Shown: positions 24,018-35,194 of the stretch, piece by piece
Layout: each line of letters starts with the position of its first letter
Position numbering within the stretch: the first letter of the stretch is position 1
Source: Candidatus Desulfaltia sp.
GTDB taxonomy: Bacteria; Desulfobacterota; Desulfobacteria; Desulfobacterales; ETH-SRB1
Direction of reading: 5' to 3'
Assembly: GCA_030656555.1 (NCBI GenBank)
Contig: JAUSPN010000005.1
Coordinates: 1 to 51,048, forward strand
DNA: 51,048 nt
Made by a program: the position numbers and the translations under genes
The notes under the pieces: generated by a model
The model's input: the letters and a program-made list of their open reading frames with translations, nothing else
Told to the model about the DNA's origin: nothing
Database searches by the model: none

Positions 24018-24788
24018 ATGATACGCTTACTTGAATTTGTGGGAAGACCCTTTATAGTTGCTGTCGAAGAATCCGGCAGAATTATACTGCTTTTAATTTC
24101 CGCAATCACATGGATGTTGCGCCCGCCGTTTCGTTTACGTATTATTTTTAAGCAGATGGAGTTTGTTGGAGTAAACTCCATCTTCGTTGTTTTGATAACA
24201 GGAGTATTTACCGGCATGGTGTTTGCCCTTCAATCGTATTATGGTTTCAAAATGTTCGGGGGGGAAAGCCTGGTCGGCGCAACCGTTGCCTTGGGTGTAA
24301 CACGCGAATTAGGGCCTGTTTTTACCGCCTTAATGGTTACGGGACGCGTGGGTTCGGCAATGACAGCCGAACTGGGAACCATGAAGGTTACAGAGCAGAT
24401 TGATGCTTTGCATAGCATGTCGGTCAATCCGATTCAGTATCTTGTGATGCCGCGCATAGTTGCCGCAATACTTATGCTGCCTGTTTTGACAATAGTATCC
24501 GATTTTGTAGGCATTCTCGGCGGCTATTTTGTCGGCGTAGAGTTACTGAAAATCAATTCCGGAATTTTTGTAGCTAAAATTGTTGAATTTGTCGATCTTG
24601 AAGATATTTTTAACGGTCTTATCAAAGCGGCATGTTTTGGGCTGATACTTTCCCTGATAGGATGTTATAAAGGAATTCGCACAACCGGCGGAGCCGAAGG
24701 GGTTGGGAAGGCGACAACCCAGTCGGTAGTTCTGTCATCGGTAACAATCTTTATCAGCGATTATTTTCTTACGTCATTTATGTTCTAA
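24018..24788 (+). CDS. mlaE: MlaE family lipid ABC transporter permease
   Basis: MlaE is the membrane subunit of the MlaFEDB-type ABC system moving phospholipids between inner and outer membranes. The 256-residue protein has the family blocks VNSIFVVLITGVFTGMVFAL, ALGVTRELGPVFTALMVTGR, GSAMTAELGTMKVTEQIDAL, MPRIVAAILMLPVLTIVSDF and the ending GAEGVGKATTQSVVLSSVTI. Five or six hydrophobic helices are visible. It is followed by the ATPase and MCE genes, giving a minimal mlaE-F-D operon; no mlaB or mlaC is in the window. Confidence 0.95.
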   Translation: MIRLLEFVGRPFIVAVEESGRIILLLISAITWMLRPPFRLRIIFKQMEFVGVNSIFVVLITGVFTGMVFALQSYYGFKMFGGESLVGATVALGVTRELGPVFTALMVTGRVGSAMTAELGTMKVTEQIDALHSMSVNPIQYLVMPRIVAAILMLPVLTIVSDFVGILGGYFVGVELLKINSGIFVAKIVEFVDLEDIFNGLIKAACFGLILSLIGCYKGIRTTGGAEGVGKATTQSVVLSSVTIFISDYFLTSFMF

Positions 24789-24797
24789 AACTTATTT

Positions 24798-24844
24798 CCC
24801 CTTTAAGGGGAGCAAAGGGACCCTAAAGCCCCCTTCAAAGGGGG
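24798..24844. repeat. Palindromic spacer repeat between mlaE and mlaF
   Basis: CCCCTTTAAGGGG (24798-24810) is followed by CCCCCTTCAAAGGGGG (24829-24844), two short GC-ended hairpins of a common intergenic repeat type. They interrupt an otherwise tight operon. Confidence 0.65.
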
Positions 24845-24887
24845 ACTTTAAAGACTTTTTTAGAGAACTTTGGACTGTATAGTTCTA

Positions 24888-25631
24888 ATGATCGAACTTA
24901 TAAAAGTATGTAAATCATTTAAAGGCCAAAAGGTTTTAGACAATCTTGATCTTAAGATTGAGCCTGAGAAGATTACCGTTATTATAGGCAGAAGCGGCGG
25001 CGGCAAAAGCGTTCTTTTAAAACATATTATGGGCCTTATTAAACCTGATTCAGGCCAGGTGCTTGTTAACGGCATTGATATTTCAAAGCTAAACGATAAG
25101 GAGCTTAACGAAGTTCGAAAAATATTCGGAATGCTTTTCCAGGACGCAGCGCTTTTTGATTCAATGACGGTTGGAGAAAATGTTGCATTTCCGCTCAAAG
25201 AGCATACAAAATTATCTAAAAAGGAAATCGATAAAGTCGTAGAAGAAAAATTATTAAAGGTTGGTTTAAAAAATGTAACGCACAAGATGCCTTCCGAGCT
25301 GTCAGGAGGAATGCGAAAGCGTGTCGGGCTTGCAAGGGCTATCGCGCTTAATCCTAAAATTGTGCTGTTTGACGAACCCACAACCGGTCTTGATCCTATT
25401 ATGTGCGAAAGCATTGACGACCTTATTATAAATACACAGCGCCACACAAATGCGACCTTTGTAGTTATCAGTCACGATATCGGATCTACTTTCAAGATTG
25501 CACATAAGGTGGCCGTGTTGTATGAAGGAAAGATTATAAAAACAGGAACTCCCGAGGAAATACGATCATCAAATAATCCTGTAATTAAACGATTCATCAG
25601 CAGGGAAACCGAAAAAGCATGTCAAACTTAA
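24888..25631 (+). CDS. mlaF: MlaF family ABC transporter ATP-binding protein
   Basis: This is the ATPase of the Mla lipid transporter. With ATG 24888 as start the protein is 247 residues and opens MIELIKVCKSFKGQKVLDNL as usual; the TTG at 24870 would add six unconserved residues. Walker A is GRSGGGKS (34-41), the Q-loop lies in GMLFQDAALFDSMTVGENV, the ABC signature is LSGGMRKR, Walker B is IVLFDEPTTGLDP and the switch histidine is in VVISHD. The GMLFQDAALF segment is specific to the MlaF/Mkl branch. It overlaps mlaD by 13 bp. Confidence 0.95.
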   Translation: MIELIKVCKSFKGQKVLDNLDLKIEPEKITVIIGRSGGGKSVLLKHIMGLIKPDSGQVLVNGIDISKLNDKELNEVRKIFGMLFQDAALFDSMTVGENVAFPLKEHTKLSKKEIDKVVEEKLLKVGLKNVTHKMPSELSGGMRKRVGLARAIALNPKIVLFDEPTTGLDPIMCESIDDLIINTQRHTNATFVVISHDIGSTFKIAHKVAVLYEGKIIKTGTPEEIRSSNNPVIKRFISRETEKACQT

Positions 25632-27103
25632 CTGTTGAAGCAAAAGTAGGTGTTTTTGTAGTAGTCGGCATTGTCATCCTGACATATATGTCGATGCAGG
25701 TTGGAGGACTGAGCTTTAAAAGAGCAAAGGGATATGATGTTAATGTATATTTTGACTCTGCAACAGGTCTTGCAGAGGATGTTCAGGTAGAAATTGCCGG
25801 CGTGGAGATCGGCAGGGTTCGTAAAATTTCTCTGGAAAACGGAAAAGCGCTGGTTGTTTTAAGGATTAATCCCAATGTAAGGCTGACAAAGGATGTAAAG
25901 GCTGTTATCAGAACCAAGGGTATTCTGGGCGATAAATATGTTGAACTTGTCCAGGGATCACCTTCTGCTCCCCCGCTAAAAGAGGGTGACAGGATTGTCA
26001 AAACCGTCCCAACAACGGACATGGATACCCTTATAATTACCCTGGGAGAGGTAGCAAAAAACATCAACAGGCTTACAAATTCCCTTGCGAATGTTGTCGG
26101 CGGCGAAAAGGGCGAGGCTTCACTTAACTCTATCGTTGAAAATGTTAGAGAAATGTTTGAAACCTTAAATAAAACCGTTCAGAAAAACAACGATGACGTC
26201 ACAAACATAATTGCCAACCTGTCCGAGTTTTCAGAAACATTAAACAAAATAGGAAATACTAACAGGGATGACATTCGCGGCATAATATCTAATGTGCGCA
26301 AAGCCTCTGAAAAAATGGAAGGGCTGGTTGCCGGCATTAACGATATTACGTCCAAGATTAACCAGGGCAAGGGCAGCATCGGGAAACTGGTAAACGAGGA
26401 AGAAACAGTTGATAACTTAAACAAAGCCCTTGCGGGTCTTAAAACAATTACAGATAAGATCAACAGCGGTGAAGGATCGATCGGAAAGCTGATTAATGAA
26501 GACGAAACAGTAGAAAATATTAATACCTCTCTTGTCAGCATAAATGATTATCTCCAGAAACAGGACGAATATAAAACATATCTTGATTATAGAGGAGAAT
26601 ATCTTTTTGACAGTGATGAAGTTAAATCTTATCTTTCGCTTCGCATTCAACCCAAGGAAGATAAATATTATCTGCTTCAAATATTAGACGATCCAAGCGG
26701 AAAAGAAAAAGTAACAGATACCACACTGGCAAACGGGACTACTACACGTACAGTGGAAAACGACAAGGATGCGCTCAAGTTTTCAGCACAGATAGCAAAG
26801 CGATACTATGACATCGGCTTGCGCGGCGGTCTTTTCGAGTCTACCGGTGGCGTCGGCCTTGATTACTATCTCTTCAGTGACCGTTTGACCTTCTCACTCG
26901 AAGCCTTTGATTTTGATCCTGACAGAAACGCACACCTGAAATTCAAAGCCGACTATAGACCGTTTAAACATATCTATATAACCTCAGGATTTGATGATTT
27001 TATAAGTGATGAAGGAAAAGAGTCCTTTTTTGTCGGAGCCGGAATCAGCTTTGCAGATGATGATATTAAAAGTCTTTTATCAGACATCCCGATTCCTAAA
27101 TAA
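25619..27103 (+). CDS. mlaD: MCE-domain protein MlaD with an extended C-terminal beta-rich domain
   Basis: MlaD anchors in the inner membrane and its MCE ring binds the lipid being moved. The 494-residue protein has a membrane helix (about 10-28), one MCE domain (about 38-116, with VQVEIAGVEIGRVRKISL and GILGDKYVEL), a helical region (about 130-300) containing two near-identical 20-residue repeats, INQGKGSIGKLVNEEETVDN and INSGEGSIGKLINEDETVEN, 34 residues apart, and a C-terminal stretch (about 310-494) of alternating strands (YYDIGLRGGLFESTGGVGLDY, cut here as seen in parts). E. coli MlaD is only about 180 residues, so this is much longer and could reach far across the periplasm. Confidence 0.9.
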   Translation: MSNLTVEAKVGVFVVVGIVILTYMSMQVGGLSFKRAKGYDVNVYFDSATGLAEDVQVEIAGVEIGRVRKISLENGKALVVLRINPNVRLTKDVKAVIRTKGILGDKYVELVQGSPSAPPLKEGDRIVKTVPTTDMDTLIITLGEVAKNINRLTNSLANVVGGEKGEASLNSIVENVREMFETLNKTVQKNNDDVTNIIANLSEFSETLNKIGNTNRDDIRGIISNVRKASEKMEGLVAGINDITSKINQGKGSIGKLVNEEETVDNLNKALAGLKTITDKINSGEGSIGKLINEDETVENINTSLVSINDYLQKQDEYKTYLDYRGEYLFDSDEVKSYLSLRIQPKEDKYYLLQILDDPSGKEKVTDTTLANGTTTRTVENDKDALKFSAQIAKRYYDIGLRGGLFESTGGVGLDYYLFSDRLTFSLEAFDFDPDRNAHLKFKADYRPFKHIYITSGFDDFISDEGKESFFVGAGISFADDDIKSLLSDIPIPK

Positions 27104-27137: not shown

Positions 27138-28562
27138 ATGATTTCCAAGCCTTTAGATGAAAAAGTCAAACCATTCAAACTGGTAAAGTATTTCACCTTT
27201 ACAAGCCTGATATTAATCTTTTTAGGGATACTGATTCTCGCGGGTCTCAACAATCACTGGTCAAGGATGATGCAGCTCAAGAAGAGTGAAGACTATGCCA
27301 GGCTTCTTGTAGCAAATCTTAATCATCAGGTTTATATGAAATTTTACCTTCCTCTTTCCATAACACACCAGAAAGTAATCCGGCTCAGCGAAGAAAAACA
27401 TTATAAAAGAATGGATATGATCGTCAAAAGCACTTTACATGGCTTCAATGTAGAAAAGGTAAATATTTATAATAAGAATAACACAATCATTTACAGTTAT
27501 GATCAAAAATTGATAGGTTCCGACAATATCGGAGGCAAAGGGTATCTGAGTGCTCTTTCAGGCGCATCAACATCAAAACTGATTCAAAGAGGCAACTTTT
27601 TTCAGATCCTGTTTGAATTTCCCCGGGATGTTAAATTGATTACATTTGCTCCATTGCGCACGGAAGAGCCTTTACCGACGTTAACAAGGCAGGTTTTCGG
27701 TGTTTTTGAAATCGTTCAAGACATATCAGAAGATTTTAAAACAATTTTTCAATTCCAGATATTAGCTATTATCACAATTACCCTGATTATGGGAGCTCTG
27801 TTTTTGGCTCTTTTCTTTGTGGTCAAAAGGGGAGAGGCAATTATTGAAAACAGAGCCCTGGAAAGGCTGCAGCTTAAGGAGCAATTAACTAAAGCGCGGC
27901 ATCTGTCTTCGTTGGGAGAGATGGTGGCGGGTGTCTCCCATGAAATCCGAAATCCATTAGGGATCATCAGGAGTTCAGCCGATCTTCTAAAGAAAAAAAT
28001 GAACCATTTTGATCCTTCGAGCACTATTCCGGATATAATTTTAGAAGAATCGGATCGACTGAATAATATAATAACAGATTTTTTAAATTTTGCGAAACCT
28101 AAAATGCCGAATCTTACCCCGTGCCGTGTTGAAGAAGTGCTTGACAGAAATATTACCTTTCTTGCATCACAGATAGAAAAACAGGGCTATATAATTAATA
28201 AGCATTATGATAGTAATCTTCCGGAAATAATGGCCGATTCCGCCATGTTATATCAGGCATTCCTTAACATATTGATAAACTCCATGCAGGCCATGCGAGG
28301 TGGCGGAAAAATAGATATTCAGCTTACTTCAAAGGATAACTCAGTAACAATTACTTTTGAAGATGAAGGGGAAGGTGTGCCAAAAGATGTTATGGAAAAG
28401 ATATGGGAACCTTTTTTTACTACAAAGGAAAAAGGGACAGGCCTGGGCCTGGGCATTGTAAAAAACATTATCAAAATGCATGAAGGAAGCATCCGGATTG
28501 ACAACAAACCTGCGCATGGAGCCTGTATTACAATTGAATTGCCGGTTCACAGGGCAATATGA
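27138..28562 (+). CDS. Membrane sensor histidine kinase
   Basis: The 474-residue kinase has two membrane helices (about 17-36 and 206-230) around a periplasmic sensor domain of about 170 residues that looks Cache/PAS-like (NIYNKNNTIIYSYDQKLIGS). The phosphoacceptor is H268 in GVSHEIRNPLG; the ATP-binding domain shows NSMQAM (N box), EDEGEGVP (G1), FFTTKEKGTGLGLG (F/G2). It precedes an NtrC-type regulator on the same strand, with a repeat-filled 373-bp gap, and is probably its partner. The signal sensed is unknown. It follows mlaD by 34 bp and may be cotranscribed with the mla operon. Confidence 0.9.
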   Translation: MISKPLDEKVKPFKLVKYFTFTSLILIFLGILILAGLNNHWSRMMQLKKSEDYARLLVANLNHQVYMKFYLPLSITHQKVIRLSEEKHYKRMDMIVKSTLHGFNVEKVNIYNKNNTIIYSYDQKLIGSDNIGGKGYLSALSGASTSKLIQRGNFFQILFEFPRDVKLITFAPLRTEEPLPTLTRQVFGVFEIVQDISEDFKTIFQFQILAIITITLIMGALFLALFFVVKRGEAIIENRALERLQLKEQLTKARHLSSLGEMVAGVSHEIRNPLGIIRSSADLLKKKMNHFDPSSTIPDIILEESDRLNNIITDFLNFAKPKMPNLTPCRVEEVLDRNITFLASQIEKQGYIINKHYDSNLPEIMADSAMLYQAFLNILINSMQAMRGGGKIDIQLTSKDNSVTITFEDEGEGVPKDVMEKIWEPFFTTKEKGTGLGLGIVKNIIKMHEGSIRIDNKPAHGACITIELPVHRAI

Positions 28563-28722: not shown

Positions 28723-28915
28723 TTGATGGATTCGTAAAAAGTCATTTATGAGCGAGATTGAGCAGTTTTGGAAAAAGATTCAGATTGAGCCTGACGTTAA
28801 AAATTGCAAGCTGTTTGAGGCCGTTAGGCCGAGTTCTTGCAATTTAGACAGGATTAATCTGAATCCCAAAAATGCTCACGGAGCGAATAAATCGTACTTT
28901 TTACGAATTCATCAA
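28723..28915. mobile_element. MITE-like hairpin element, 193 bp
   Basis: Terminal inverted repeats TTGATGGATTCGTAAAAAGT and its complement at 28896-28915 differ at one of 20 positions. Inside, GATTCAGATT pairs with AATCTGAATC and AAATTGCAAG with CTTGCAATTT, so the whole element can fold into one long hairpin. It has no reading frame for a transposase. Single ends of the same family occur at 31307-31325 and 35205-35228. No clear target duplication is visible. Confidence 0.7.
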
Positions 28916-28935: not shown

Positions 28936-30318
28936 ATGGAAACCATTCTAATCGTAGATGATGAAAAAAATTATCCGCCCATATTAAGCGCTGTGCTGGA
29001 AGAAGAAGGTTTTGCAACCTTAACCGCTAATAGCGGTCGAGAGGCGCTTGAAATTCTGAACAACTCTGATGTTGACCTTGTTTTAACCGATATGAAAATG
29101 CCTTCAATGGACGGCATGGAATTGCTTGAAAGGATCAAGACCAAAAATGCCGATCTTCCGGTCATAATGATGACTGCTTACGGCACAGTAGAAAGGGCGG
29201 TGCAGGCAATGCAAAAAGGGGCTTATAACTACATTCTTAAGCCTTTTGATAATGAAACTCTGGTTATTTATGTGAACAAAGCAGTTTCAATGTACCGCGT
29301 AATCAAAGAAAACAGGTACCTGCGTGATGCTGTAAAATTAAAGTACAGTTTCAGCAATATAATCGGCAAAAGCAAGACAATGCAGGATGTTTTTGAGATA
29401 ATCCGTAAAGTTGCGCCAACCAATGCAACCGTCTTGATCGAGGGTGAAAGTGGCACAGGGAAAGAGCTGGCAGCAAAAGCCATTCACTTTAACAGTCCGA
29501 GGCGTGGCAAACCTTTTATTGCCGTAAACTGCAGCGCGCTTGCTGAAAATCTTCTTGAAAGTGAACTTTTCGGCCACGAAAAAGGGGCATTTACCGGTGC
29601 CATAGCAATGAAAAAGGGGCGGTTTGAAATGGCTGATGAGGGAACGCTGTTTCTGGATGAAATCGGCGAGCTTTCACAAAGTCTCCAGGTAAAACTATTA
29701 CGGGTTCTTCAGGAAAAGGTTGTTGAAAGGGTCGGCGGAGTTAAGCCGCTTTCCGTCAATATCCGTATCATTGCCGCCACGAATAAACAGTTAAAAGAAG
29801 AGATGGAGCAGGGCCGCTTCAGGGAGGACCTGTTTTACAGATTGAATGTAGTAAATATTGTCCTGCCGCCTCTGAAACAACGTATAGATGATCTCCGGCT
29901 TTTAATTGATCATTTTATAAAAAAATATGCTGATGAACACGACTCGGATACTCCTGTTAAGGGTCTTGATAATGAAGTTGAACGTCTTTTTAACAATTAC
30001 AACTGGCCCGGAAATGTTCGGGAGCTGGAAAATGTTATTGAAAGGGCGATGATTATGTGTCCTGCTGAAATCATCAGGGTGTCCGATCTTCCCAGGGATT
30101 TCAGGAATAATGTTGACAGTTCAATGTATCTTGACGGGATACCCAACAATGCAACATTATATAAGACTCTTGCTCTGGTTGAAAAAAATATGATCAAAAG
30201 GGCTTTGAAGCTCACAAATAATGTTCAGTCCAATGCTGCTGAACTTCTCGGAATCGGCAAAAGCGGCCTGAGCAAAAAAATAAGCAGACACGAACTGTCT
30301 CAGGATATAGTTGAGTAG
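28936..30318 (+). CDS. NtrC-family sigma-54 dependent response regulator
   Basis: The 460-residue protein has a receiver domain (1-120) with phosphoacceptor D52 in TDMKMPSMDG, a sigma-54 activation AAA+ domain (about 140-380) with Walker A GESGTGKE (170-177), the sigma-54 contact loop GAFTGA (217-222), Walker B in GTLFLDEIGEL and the arginine-rich NWPGNVRELENVIERA, and a C-terminal Fis-type helix-turn-helix (NNVQSNAAELLGIGKSGLSK). It should activate sigma-54 promoters when phosphorylated by the upstream kinase. A strong -24/-12 promoter with paired upstream inverted repeats begins only about 25-180 bp downstream of its stop and is the obvious candidate target. Confidence 0.94.
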   Translation: METILIVDDEKNYPPILSAVLEEEGFATLTANSGREALEILNNSDVDLVLTDMKMPSMDGMELLERIKTKNADLPVIMMTAYGTVERAVQAMQKGAYNYILKPFDNETLVIYVNKAVSMYRVIKENRYLRDAVKLKYSFSNIIGKSKTMQDVFEIIRKVAPTNATVLIEGESGTGKELAAKAIHFNSPRRGKPFIAVNCSALAENLLESELFGHEKGAFTGAIAMKKGRFEMADEGTLFLDEIGELSQSLQVKLLRVLQEKVVERVGGVKPLSVNIRIIAATNKQLKEEMEQGRFREDLFYRLNVVNIVLPPLKQRIDDLRLLIDHFIKKYADEHDSDTPVKGLDNEVERLFNNYNWPGNVRELENVIERAMIMCPAEIIRVSDLPRDFRNNVDSSMYLDGIPNNATLYKTLALVEKNMIKRALKLTNNVQSNAAELLGIGKSGLSKKISRHELSQDIVE

Positions 30319-30342
30319 TCGAGTTGGGAAAAGAAAAATAAA

Positions 30343-30390
30343 AAACGCTGTCAGTTTCCAAATGGAAATCAAGCGTTTCTAAATGGAAAC
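30343..30390. promoter_or_regulatory. Paired inverted repeats, candidate enhancer sites for the NtrC-type regulator
   Basis: TTTCCA-AA-TGGAAA (30355-30368) and GTTTC-TAAATG-GAAAC (30375-30390) have dyad centres 21 bp apart, two helical turns, and lie about 150 bp upstream of the predicted sigma-54 start site, the usual enhancer position. AAACGCT (30343-30349) also pairs with AGCGTTT (30372-30378), so the region could alternatively fold as a weak terminator for the regulator mRNA. Confidence 0.5.
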
Positions 30391-30498
30391 AAATTTTGGT
30401 AATAATAAATAGTTTATAAGAGCAAGAAATCTTTATGAGGAATACAACCTATTGATAATTCAACAATAAAGGAATTGGGTATATTGGTCATACAACTT

Positions 30499-30512
30499 GG
30501 CATGCAAGTTGC
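30499..30512 (+). promoter_or_regulatory. Sigma-54 (-24/-12) promoter
   Basis: TTGGCATGCAAGTTGCT matches the consensus TGGCACG-N4-TTGCW at all but one position. GG (30499-30500) and GC (30511-30512) are separated by exactly 10 bp, the invariant spacing. The predicted start is near 30524. It points to the right, away from the next gene, which is on the opposite strand. Confidence 0.75.
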
Positions 30513-30523
30513 TTAACTAATAG

Positions 30524-30598
30524 ATAACCTGATAATTTTTTCATCTGTTTTTCTCCTTAACGGCCAAGCATACCTCCCATGTTTGGCCGATTTTTTTT
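30524..30598 (+). ncRNA. Candidate sigma-54-dependent small RNA with anti-Shine-Dalgarno loops
   Basis: Between the -24/-12 promoter and an intrinsic terminator lie about 75 nt with no open frame of note. The predicted RNA has a U-rich, mostly unpaired 5' part containing TTTTTCTCCTTAA (30548-30560), then an 11-bp terminator stem whose 7-nt loop is ACCTCCC. CTCC and CCTCC are complementary to ribosome-binding sites and are the seed type used by several bacterial regulatory RNAs. The transcript ends 6 bp before the stop codon of the opposing gene, so it cannot be a leader for a downstream gene. Role, Hfq binding and targets are inference. Confidence 0.6.
30561..30598 (+). terminator. Intrinsic terminator
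   Basis: CGGCCAAGCAT (30561-30571) pairs with ATGTTTGGCCG (30579-30589) over 11 bp with one G-U pair; loop ACCTCCC; then A and eight T residues. It has no T-run on the opposite strand, so it works rightwards only. Confidence 0.85.
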
Positions 30599-30603
30599 GT
30601 TCA

Positions 30604-31290
30604 TTAACCATTTATTCTTTCCCTTGCGAGTTCAATATAGATTGAATCAGTATAGTCGGAAATAATCTTCTTAAAAGCTGCTATGCTTTTCTCGTTCTCA
30701 CCCATTGTTGCATAAAGCCGGCCAAGATTGAAAAGGGCCTGATCCTTCATGATAGCGCCTGATTGCGAAACAATCATTTCAAAATAGTTCACTGCGGCCT
30801 TGTAATCCTTTTTTGCTTCACAATTGTAACCTGTTCCGCTAAGAATAAATGTGTTAATCGATGGGTAATTTTTAAAGTCTTGTAAAGATTTATTATACAA
30901 GGCTGTTGCCTTTTCATAATCGCCCGCATTGTAACAAATATTGGCATATATAAGCCTCACAAGTTTTGCGGCATCTCTTCTTGAATATTTTTTTATAATA
31001 AAATCAAAATTCTGACTAATATTCTGGTAAGCCTTTTCAGGTCCACTATCTTTTACAATAAAATTATATCCGATTACAGCCTGGTCCAACAAGGCAAATG
31101 CCGTGTTTTCAGCTTTATTTGAAAAATACCGAATCCCTGAAACAACGATTATAAGCAATGCAACTACACCTAAGGCAAATGATATTTGAACCTTATATTT
31201 TATCGCAGATTCTAATAATCTGGATGAAAAGCTTATAAATTCATCAGGTCCTTTTAGCAGTTGTTTTCTGGTTACCCTTTTCTTAGCCAT
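30604..31290 (-). CDS. Membrane-anchored TPR protein (YfgM-like)
   Basis: The 228-residue protein has a basic cytosolic start (MAKKRVTRKQLLKGPDEF), one membrane helix (about 35-55) and a periplasmic part with four to five TPR-like repeats (YANICYNAGDYEKATALYNK, TGYNCEAKKDYKAAVNYFEM, NLGRLYATMGENEKSIAAFK). This layout is that of YfgM/TPR_21 proteins, which work with periplasmic chaperones or the Sec machinery, though the sequence match is only general. TAAAGGAG precedes the ATG. Its stop lies 6 bp beyond the terminator of the opposing small RNA. Confidence 0.7.
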   Translation of the reverse strand: MAKKRVTRKQLLKGPDEFISFSSRLLESAIKYKVQISFALGVVALLIIVVSGIRYFSNKAENTAFALLDQAVIGYNFIVKDSGPEKAYQNISQNFDFIIKKYSRRDAAKLVRLIYANICYNAGDYEKATALYNKSLQDFKNYPSINTFILSGTGYNCEAKKDYKAAVNYFEMIVSQSGAIMKDQALFNLGRLYATMGENEKSIAAFKKIISDYTDSIYIELARERING

Positions 31291-34519: not shown

Positions 34520-35194
34520 CTAAACCGGGCAACAAAGTATTTTCTGCGACAGGCCGCGCCCCAATACGTAACGATTGCAATCTATTGCAATAACCACCGG
34601 CCCCTTCCCGATATTTGTGATCACATCTATTGTATCTCCGATCTTCAAACCCATTGACAATAAACGCATGCGCGCGGCTGTGTTACCTGTAAAATCTTTG
34701 ATAACAAGCTGTTCACCCTGTTTAGCCATAACAAGCGGTATTGTCTGTTTTCGCTCTTTAAGACATTGAGAGCATATACCATAAATCTCCATCTTGTGCT
34801 GAAGCATGTGAAAATCATGGTTTTCGGCTATCTGTACCTGCAAAAGCTCAAGCCGCTTATCGTTAAACTCAATAATTCTTCTACATTTTGTGCAGATCAT
34901 ATGATCATGGTGCTGGCATAAATGTCTGTGTTCATACCTCACAAGCCCATTATCAAACTTATTTGCCTGAGCAAAACCAAAGCGGCACATAAGTTTTATG
35001 GTGTCTCTTACAAAATCGGGCTCAAAATGAAATTCCTTGTCCTCAAGAATCTGAACCAGTTCGCCGATGGTAACGTGGCGTTCTGTTTTCAAAAAAACGT
35101 CAAGGATCTTGAATCTGTCCTCAAAATTATCAACAAGCTCCTGCTTAAAAAGCTTTTCAAACTGCTGTTTTTCCTGATTGTGGATCTGTTTCAT
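34520..35194 (-). CDS. Fur-family regulator fused to a C-terminal FeoA domain
   Basis: The 224-residue protein has two parts. Residues 1-150 are a Fur-type repressor: a winged helix (about 25-85) and a metal-binding dimer domain with HHDHMICTKC (95-104) and CSQC (141-144), i.e. both structural-zinc CxxC pairs. Residues about 153-224 are a FeoA SH3-like domain (MRLLSMGLKIGDTIDVITNI ... GPVVIAIDCNRYVLGRG). It stands 46 bp upstream of feoA-feoB, so it probably senses iron and controls this operon. Fur and FeoA in one chain is unusual compared with E. coli; related DtxR/IdeR proteins carry a similar C-terminal SH3 domain. Confidence 0.88.
   Translation of the reverse strand: MKQIHNQEKQQFEKLFKQELVDNFEDRFKILDVFLKTERHVTIGELVQILEDKEFHFEPDFVRDTIKLMCRFGFAQANKFDNGLVRYEHRHLCQHHDHMICTKCRRIIEFNDKRLELLQVQIAENHDFHMLQHKMEIYGICSQCLKERKQTIPLVMAKQGEQLVIKDFTGNTAARMRLLSMGLKIGDTIDVITNIGKGPVVIAIDCNRYVLGRGLSQKILCCPV

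Follow-up and report, generated by a model that had tools for sequence, protein, structure and literature searches.

Genes and sequence elements at the locus

The analyzed DNA, below called the window, is a stretch of 51,048 nucleotides from a genome of Candidatus Desulfaltia sp. (G000). Its forward strand carries a gene for a sensor histidine kinase (27138-28562; Pfam HisKA and HATPase_c) and, after it, a gene for an NtrC-type response regulator (28936-30318; receiver, sigma-54-activator and HTH_8 domains), which is the presumed activator of the RNA described below. The hydropathy profile of the kinase predicts two transmembrane segments, at residues ~13-42 and ~200-236, which flank a loop of ~160 residues. 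The regulator has an intact GAFTGA loop and the recognition helix GKSGLSKKI; an NtrC-type neighbor with this loop, preceded by its kinase, had been proposed in the initial annotation, and the Pfam domains bear this out. The scores of the regulator against the AtoC equivalog NF008469 (501 bits, cut-off 714), the LuxO model (379 bits, cut-off 800) and the NtrC model (458 bits, cut-off 559) were all below the respective cut-offs. Directly before the kinase gene there are mlaE, ABC ATPase and mlaD lipid-transport genes (24018-27103, + strand), a context which fits an envelope theme. The 373-bp gap between the kinase and regulator genes contains a 20-bp inverted repeat, TTGATGGATTCGTAAAAAGT ... ACTTTTTACGAATTCATCAA (28723-28915), which has one mismatch and arms ~190 bp apart, a layout reminiscent of a miniature mobile element; hardly any gap separates the kinase and regulator genes in several other families. 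Elsewhere in the window, a single gene (34520-35194, - strand), located upstream of feoA/feoB-like genes, encodes a fusion of a FUR-family domain with a FeoA domain.

The region downstream of the regulator gene contains a sigma-54-type -24/-12 promoter, TTGGCATGCAAGTTGCTT (30497-30514, + strand), in which the GG at 30499-30500 and the GC at 30511-30512 are separated by exactly 10 bp, and which is close to the consensus TGGCAYG-N4-TTGCW. The stretch of ~75 nt located 3' of this promoter is without a gene, and it corresponds to a predicted small RNA of ~75 nt (30523-30598, + strand), the 5' end of which was placed according to the promoter spacing. The RNA ends with an intrinsic terminator (30561-30598, + strand) composed of an 11-bp stem (30561-30589) with the loop ACCTCCC, and an eight-T tail. 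All these elements are present as they had been described earlier. The predicted fold of the 76-nt RNA has an energy of -18 kcal/mol versus -7.2 kcal/mol for shuffled sequences (z -5.2), and the 5' half of the RNA is predicted to be weakly structured. The frequency of terminators of this type, one per 2 kb here versus a shuffle mean of 1.5, shows no excess over chance, and Rfam gathering scores were not reached anywhere in the window. The RNA is presumably transcribed in vivo from the sigma-54 promoter.

The RNA belongs to a family spread across Desulfobacterales

A nucleotide search found the element in all six same-genus genomes, and the stretch from the promoter through the seed was also matched in further families of Desulfobacterales. 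From 17 RNAs, with the promoter left out, we built a covariance model and used it with a cut-off of E <= 0.01. This model matched the window at 30516-30598 with 97.9 bits, and it detected the RNA in 203 of 291 genomes of Desulfobacterales, which represent 102 of 138 genera and include Desulfosarcina alkanivorans PL12. Among 297 genomes sampled across the phylum, 14 were matched, five of them outside Desulfobacterales and all five weakly. In three of these five (G353, G454 and G445) a -24/-12 box is present and a regulator of similar, METILIVDDEKNY-type sequence is encoded upstream, and therefore the arrangement is probably older than the order.

The conservation of the individual elements places the window element beyond chance. 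A TGG-N8-TTGC box is located at most ~32 nt upstream of 34 of 37 matches of the promoter-blind model, versus 0.5 expected, and the family promoter consensus is TGGCAAG-N4-TTGC[AT]. The persistence of this box among relatives, on which the initial annotation had staked its proposal of a sigma-54-type small RNA, thus speaks in favor of that proposal. In 62 aligned copies of the terminator helix, changes on both sides were observed at 10 of 11 stem pairs, with 96.9% of the cells paired; none of 500 shuffles matched either the paired percentage or the covariation score, and the slid controls collapsed. The promoter and the RNA are kept even at loci without a regulator gene nearby. The search over relatives which had been recommended together with the initial annotation hence recovered the promoter and the terminator, often downstream of an orthologous regulator, but not the loop: its CCTCC sequence is limited to the genus of the window, while the loops elsewhere are unrelated. 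For this reason the idea of a double anti-Shine-Dalgarno RNA, with the loop as the second seed, does not hold.

Some genomes contain two or three tandem copies of the RNA. Two copies are present in G026 (L179, 5001-5083 and 5499-5581) and three in an uncultured Desulfococcus (L089, 204-286, 777-859 and 1339-1420), with one -24/-12 box per copy in both loci. Two matches of the model were dismissed, one in G593, which has no promoter and overlaps the beginning of a membrane-protein gene in antisense orientation, and one of 33.7 bits at G000:C89, which is not an RNA copy but the porin target itself. Taken together, the conservation indicates a real, order-wide family of regulatory RNAs, which is apparently new; no description of it was found in a literature search from whose coverage most subscription journals were absent.

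The regulator and the enhancer palindromes change together

The order of regulator and RNA genes, mostly with the kinase gene first, was observed in many families (G001, G004, G007, G009, G019, G024, G029, G037, G040, G049, G066, G076, G086, G126, G129, G161, G182 and G212), and at such loci a convergent gene of a TPR protein is often placed after the RNA. In the window this is the gene of a TPR-repeat membrane-anchored protein (30604-31290, - strand), and a TPR gene follows the RNA also in G001, G019, G024, G040, G066, G129, G161, G182 and G212. In Desulfosarcina-like clades the RNA is located at other places, for example beside htpG, a transporter gene or other genes. A regulator ortholog (65-74% identity, other matches below 50%) was found in 11 of 12 genomes in which the RNA is not linked to it. 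The near-absence of regulator adjacency in a set of 35 named loci was set aside, because the search pattern had skewed the composition of this set; the loci found by the model only show the common gene order in many families.

Two 16-bp palindromes, to which no strand is assigned, are located upstream of the promoter: GTTTCCAAATGGAAAT (30354-30369), the center of which precedes the -24 GG by ~137 bp, and GTTTCTAAATGGAAAC (30375-30390), 21 bp from the first one. Their positions are within the 80-200 bp upstream range of sites for NtrC-type activators, and the pair is kept in relatives. Two types of paired palindromes were observed in the family: GTTTCC-N4-GGAAAC occurring twice, 21-24 bp apart, as in the window, and a GTTCAA-N4-TTGAAC-like type, usually at about -245 and -165. 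Palindromes are also present upstream of those RNAs which are not linked to a regulator gene. In G049 (L220) three identical palindromes, GTTCAAAATATTGAAC, are located at about -317, -242 and -167 from the RNA, with an exact spacing of 75 bp.

The type of palindrome corresponds to the recognition helix of the regulator, which reads ...G[LF][SN]KK in genomes with GTTTCC sites and ...GLN[QW]K in genomes with GTTCAA sites; for the W-type regulators of G086 and G126 a simple palindrome pattern found no site. In a tree of the regulators, built without their C-terminal 45 residues, G182 (K, GTTTCC) is nested with strong support among its W, GTTCAA relatives G037, G161 and G212, which indicates that the helix and the enhancer type changed together recently. 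Where the gene and the site are linked, joint inheritance or transfer could be behind part of this coupling. The shared gene order and the co-variation of palindromes with the recognition helix agree with the earlier suggestion that the neighboring regulator is the activator, and make it very likely that the regulator directly activates the RNA promoter.

The best GTTTCC-N4-GGAAAC sites in G000, G001, G004, G005 and G007 are those at the RNA, as are the only listed palindrome pairs in these genomes, while single-mismatch palindromes elsewhere in them are at about the control level. Because the listed pairs are at the RNA alone in these five genomes, the RNA looks like a dedicated output of the two-component system. 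An enhancer-like site at G000:C49:4405, kept in four same-genus genomes, was dismissed, as it is located inside a BirA-like coding sequence.

The conserved 5' part of the RNA is complementary to porin translation start regions

The unpaired 5' part of the RNA contains a conserved stretch, AACCTAATAATTTYTTCATCTGTTYTCCTCCTTAA in most clades, of which ~25 nt are antisense to a Shine-Dalgarno (SD) sequence and, after a spacer, a start codon with MKK codons. This main seed, called here box 2, is located in the window at 30534-30560 (+ strand), where it is complementary in all 27 of its 27 nucleotides to the region from the SD sequence to codon 4 of a gene at G000:C89:58092-58118. The gene encodes a porin (Porin_4 match), and its SD spacer is 8 nt long. 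When up to two mismatches were allowed, the 23-nt seed pattern occurred in G000 at three places only, which were the RNA locus, the porin gene and an HU-like gene. The exact seed pattern gave 28 matches in 116 Desulfobacterales genomes, with 19 of them at RNA loci; among the nine others, eight are at porin-like outer-membrane proteins (G000, G004, G005, two in G037, G040, and two in G073) and one at a solute-binding protein. In 13 tests of RNA-porin duplexes, 11 duplexes were stronger than those with all 274 of 274 other gene starts and two were stronger than those with 273, where the background gene starts were drawn from the retrieved loci rather than from the full gene set of each genome. 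In the Desulfosarcina-like genomes G183, G281, G195, G131 and G043, the search with up to two mismatches gave no match at a porin start. The weaker target candidates are envelope genes, such as one for an MlaC-like protein (G043) and those for outer-membrane proteins (G102, G129, G131).

These data suggest that the start regions of porin mRNAs are the probable targets of the RNA. They support the blocking of ribosome-binding sites that was proposed earlier, but they change its details. Two anti-SD seeds are not supported; the seed has ~25 nt and is directed against the SD plus the start codon, and those targets that could be identified are porins rather than SD sites at large.

The RNA co-varies with the porin leader

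The comparison of RNAs with the porins from the same genomes showed corresponding changes in the length of the spacer. Relative to the genus of the window, the RNA of G009 has one extra T opposite one extra A in the spacer of its own porin, and in G007 the porin spacer is longer as in G009 and the RNA is longer at the corresponding place. Further correspondence was observed between a second part of the RNA, box 1, and a porin site which is not an SD. In the window box 1, CCTGATAATTTTT (30528-30540, + strand), is complementary to AAAAATTATCAGG, which precedes the SD sequence in the G000 porin leader. The analogous pairs upstream of the SD sequence are CCAAATATTT with AAATATTTGG in G009, ACCTAATAATTT with AAATTATTAGGT in G037, and AAACAATTTCT with AGAAATTGTTT in G032, while in G028 the partner of box 1, CCGCAAATTT, is found in porin codons 3-6 (AAATTTGCGG). 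In tests with dinucleotide shuffles, those of the leader reached the box-1 match in 0/2000 cases for G000, 0/2000 and 2/2000 for the two G037 porins, 1/2000 for G032 and 80/2000 for G009, and shuffles of the coding region in 4/2000 for G028. No upstream leader site matching box 1 was found in G040 and G058, where the shuffle test was negative. The total duplex energies are not cognate-specific, as non-cognate RNA-porin pairs are often equally strong, and so the co-variation between RNA and porin rests on the spacer and on box 1. Because the box-1 site is upstream of the SD sequence in G000, G009, G037 and G032, boxes 1 and 2 cannot share one continuous antiparallel duplex, and for both to pair on one leader, either a second RNA molecule would have to take part or a crossed complex would have to form.

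The same observations bear on the question of how specific the RNA is for porins. It could be a real regulated RNA which acts as a general antisense to the SD plus ATGAAAAAA starts of many mRNAs for exported proteins, with porins as only the strongest of several targets. Any SD followed by an MKK start indeed has a reverse complement similar to the seed, the weaker matches fall on other envelope genes such as the MlaC-like gene (G043), the outer-membrane proteins (G102, G129, G131) and a solute-binding protein (G099), and in most clades the RNA is present without an evident porin match. However, the exact matches are almost all porins, the 23-nt pattern with two mismatches is found at only three places in G000, and the RNA co-varies with the porin leader in spacer length and at the site of box 1. 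We regard such broad action as unlikely, although it keeps some weight, and prefer the reading in which porins are the targets.

Comparison with known regulatory RNAs

A search for Hfq (PF17209) in six genomes, including the genome of the window, which is listed as 100% complete, did not find the protein, while the controls were positive. The long, uninterrupted predicted pairing would suit an RNA that acts without Hfq. The RNA resembles the Qrr RNAs of Vibrio in having a sigma-54 promoter under an NtrC-type response regulator that acts via two upstream sites, and in its possible multicopy occurrence and base-pairing action (PMC10162802). On the other hand, the window RNA scores 17 bits with the Qrr model RF00378 versus the Rfam cut-off of 50, the targets in the LuxO/Qrr system belong to quorum sensing rather than being a porin, and no Hfq was found here in the six genomes. 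The similarity to MicA, RybB and VrrA consists in a short antisense RNA directed to the starts of outer-membrane protein mRNAs and in an envelope-stress-like logic (PMC1804206, PMC2628432). These RNAs differ in being dependent on sigma-E, in place of which a sigma-54 element and a two-component system are found here, and those of the MicA/RybB type depend on Hfq, while here the predicted pairing extends over 15-27 bp and the six genomes gave no Hfq match; the score of the window RNA with the VrrA model RF01456 is 16.7 bits versus the cut-off of 50. In Desulfovibrio vulgaris the response regulator DVU0679 targets Dv_sRNA2, an RNA downstream of its own gene, the function of which was given as unknown, and DVU0679 orthologs were reported in Desulfovibrio and two Firmicutes (PMC3333781). 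By this description, the pair shares with the present one the combination of a response regulator with an RNA encoded immediately after its gene, and among sulfate reducers it comes nearest to a precedent. The best reading of these comparisons is that the input side would work like LuxO/Qrr and the output side like MicA/RybB, while the RNA fits neither family.

In Pseudomonas, CbrB activates CrcZ, a sigma-54 RNA encoded beside this NtrC-type activator, which is the same arrangement as observed here. CrcZ is a decoy for Hfq/Crc, and the present RNA could by analogy titrate a protein, as CrcZ or RsmZ do, instead of pairing with mRNA. This is very improbable, because the RNA is without repeated CA or GGA motifs, its single conserved unpaired stretch is antisense to mRNA starts, the six genomes gave no Hfq that a CrcZ-type decoy would bind, and there is no Rfam match. 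It is even harder to believe that the + strand RNA does not exist and that the opposite strand instead encodes a short protein or a leader peptide: the - strand does read as an SD followed by an ATG starting MKKL..., but the frames vary from ~6 to 71 codons, their residues past the first few are not conserved, the promoter, the T tract of the terminator and the enhancers are oriented against it, and the covariation of the terminator helix is that of an RNA. Equally hard to defend is the view that the hairpin, which in the window follows the regulator gene at a distance of ~240 bp, merely terminates that gene next to a chance -24/-12 box, since promoter and RNA are kept where no regulator gene is near and the box accompanies 34 of 37 promoter-blind matches.

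Proposed mechanism and its implications

We consider it likely that the locus encodes a sigma-54 RNA which is switched by the kinase and the regulator and represses porins independently of Hfq. The two-transmembrane kinase would sense a signal, probably from the envelope, and phosphorylate the adjoining NtrC-type regulator, which would occupy the two upstream palindromes and act with sigma-54 polymerase. The polymerase would start the ~75-nt RNA, ending at its own terminator, and the unpaired 5' half of this RNA would pair over ~15-27 bp with the region from the SD sequence to the start codon of outer-membrane porin mRNAs. The pairing would repress rather than activate, by blocking ribosome entry, and loss of the mRNA would probably follow. 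Hfq would be unneeded, as the pairing is long enough, and in some lineages the second 5' box may touch the same porin leader. A more far-reaching version, which we offer tentatively, is that a two-component system with one output, its regulon being approximately a single sigma-54 RNA, replaces the sigma-E/MicA/RybB arm in Desulfobacterales, with extended Hfq-free pairing, two leader sites per porin, and, on each mRNA, either a pair of RNA molecules or a crossed complex.

RNA control is almost unstudied in this major lineage of sulfate reducers, for which the present analysis supplies an order-wide RNA family, a predicted activator with its enhancer sites, and a target that can be tested. RNA and target co-vary in a series of natural pairs, as do regulator and operator, and swaps between such pairs allow direct tests of the rules of pairing and of the code by which the regulator recognizes DNA. 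If the proposed mechanism is true, porin silencing by RNA would in these bacteria rely on sigma-54 and on a two-component system of its own, not on sigma-E, and would proceed without Hfq.
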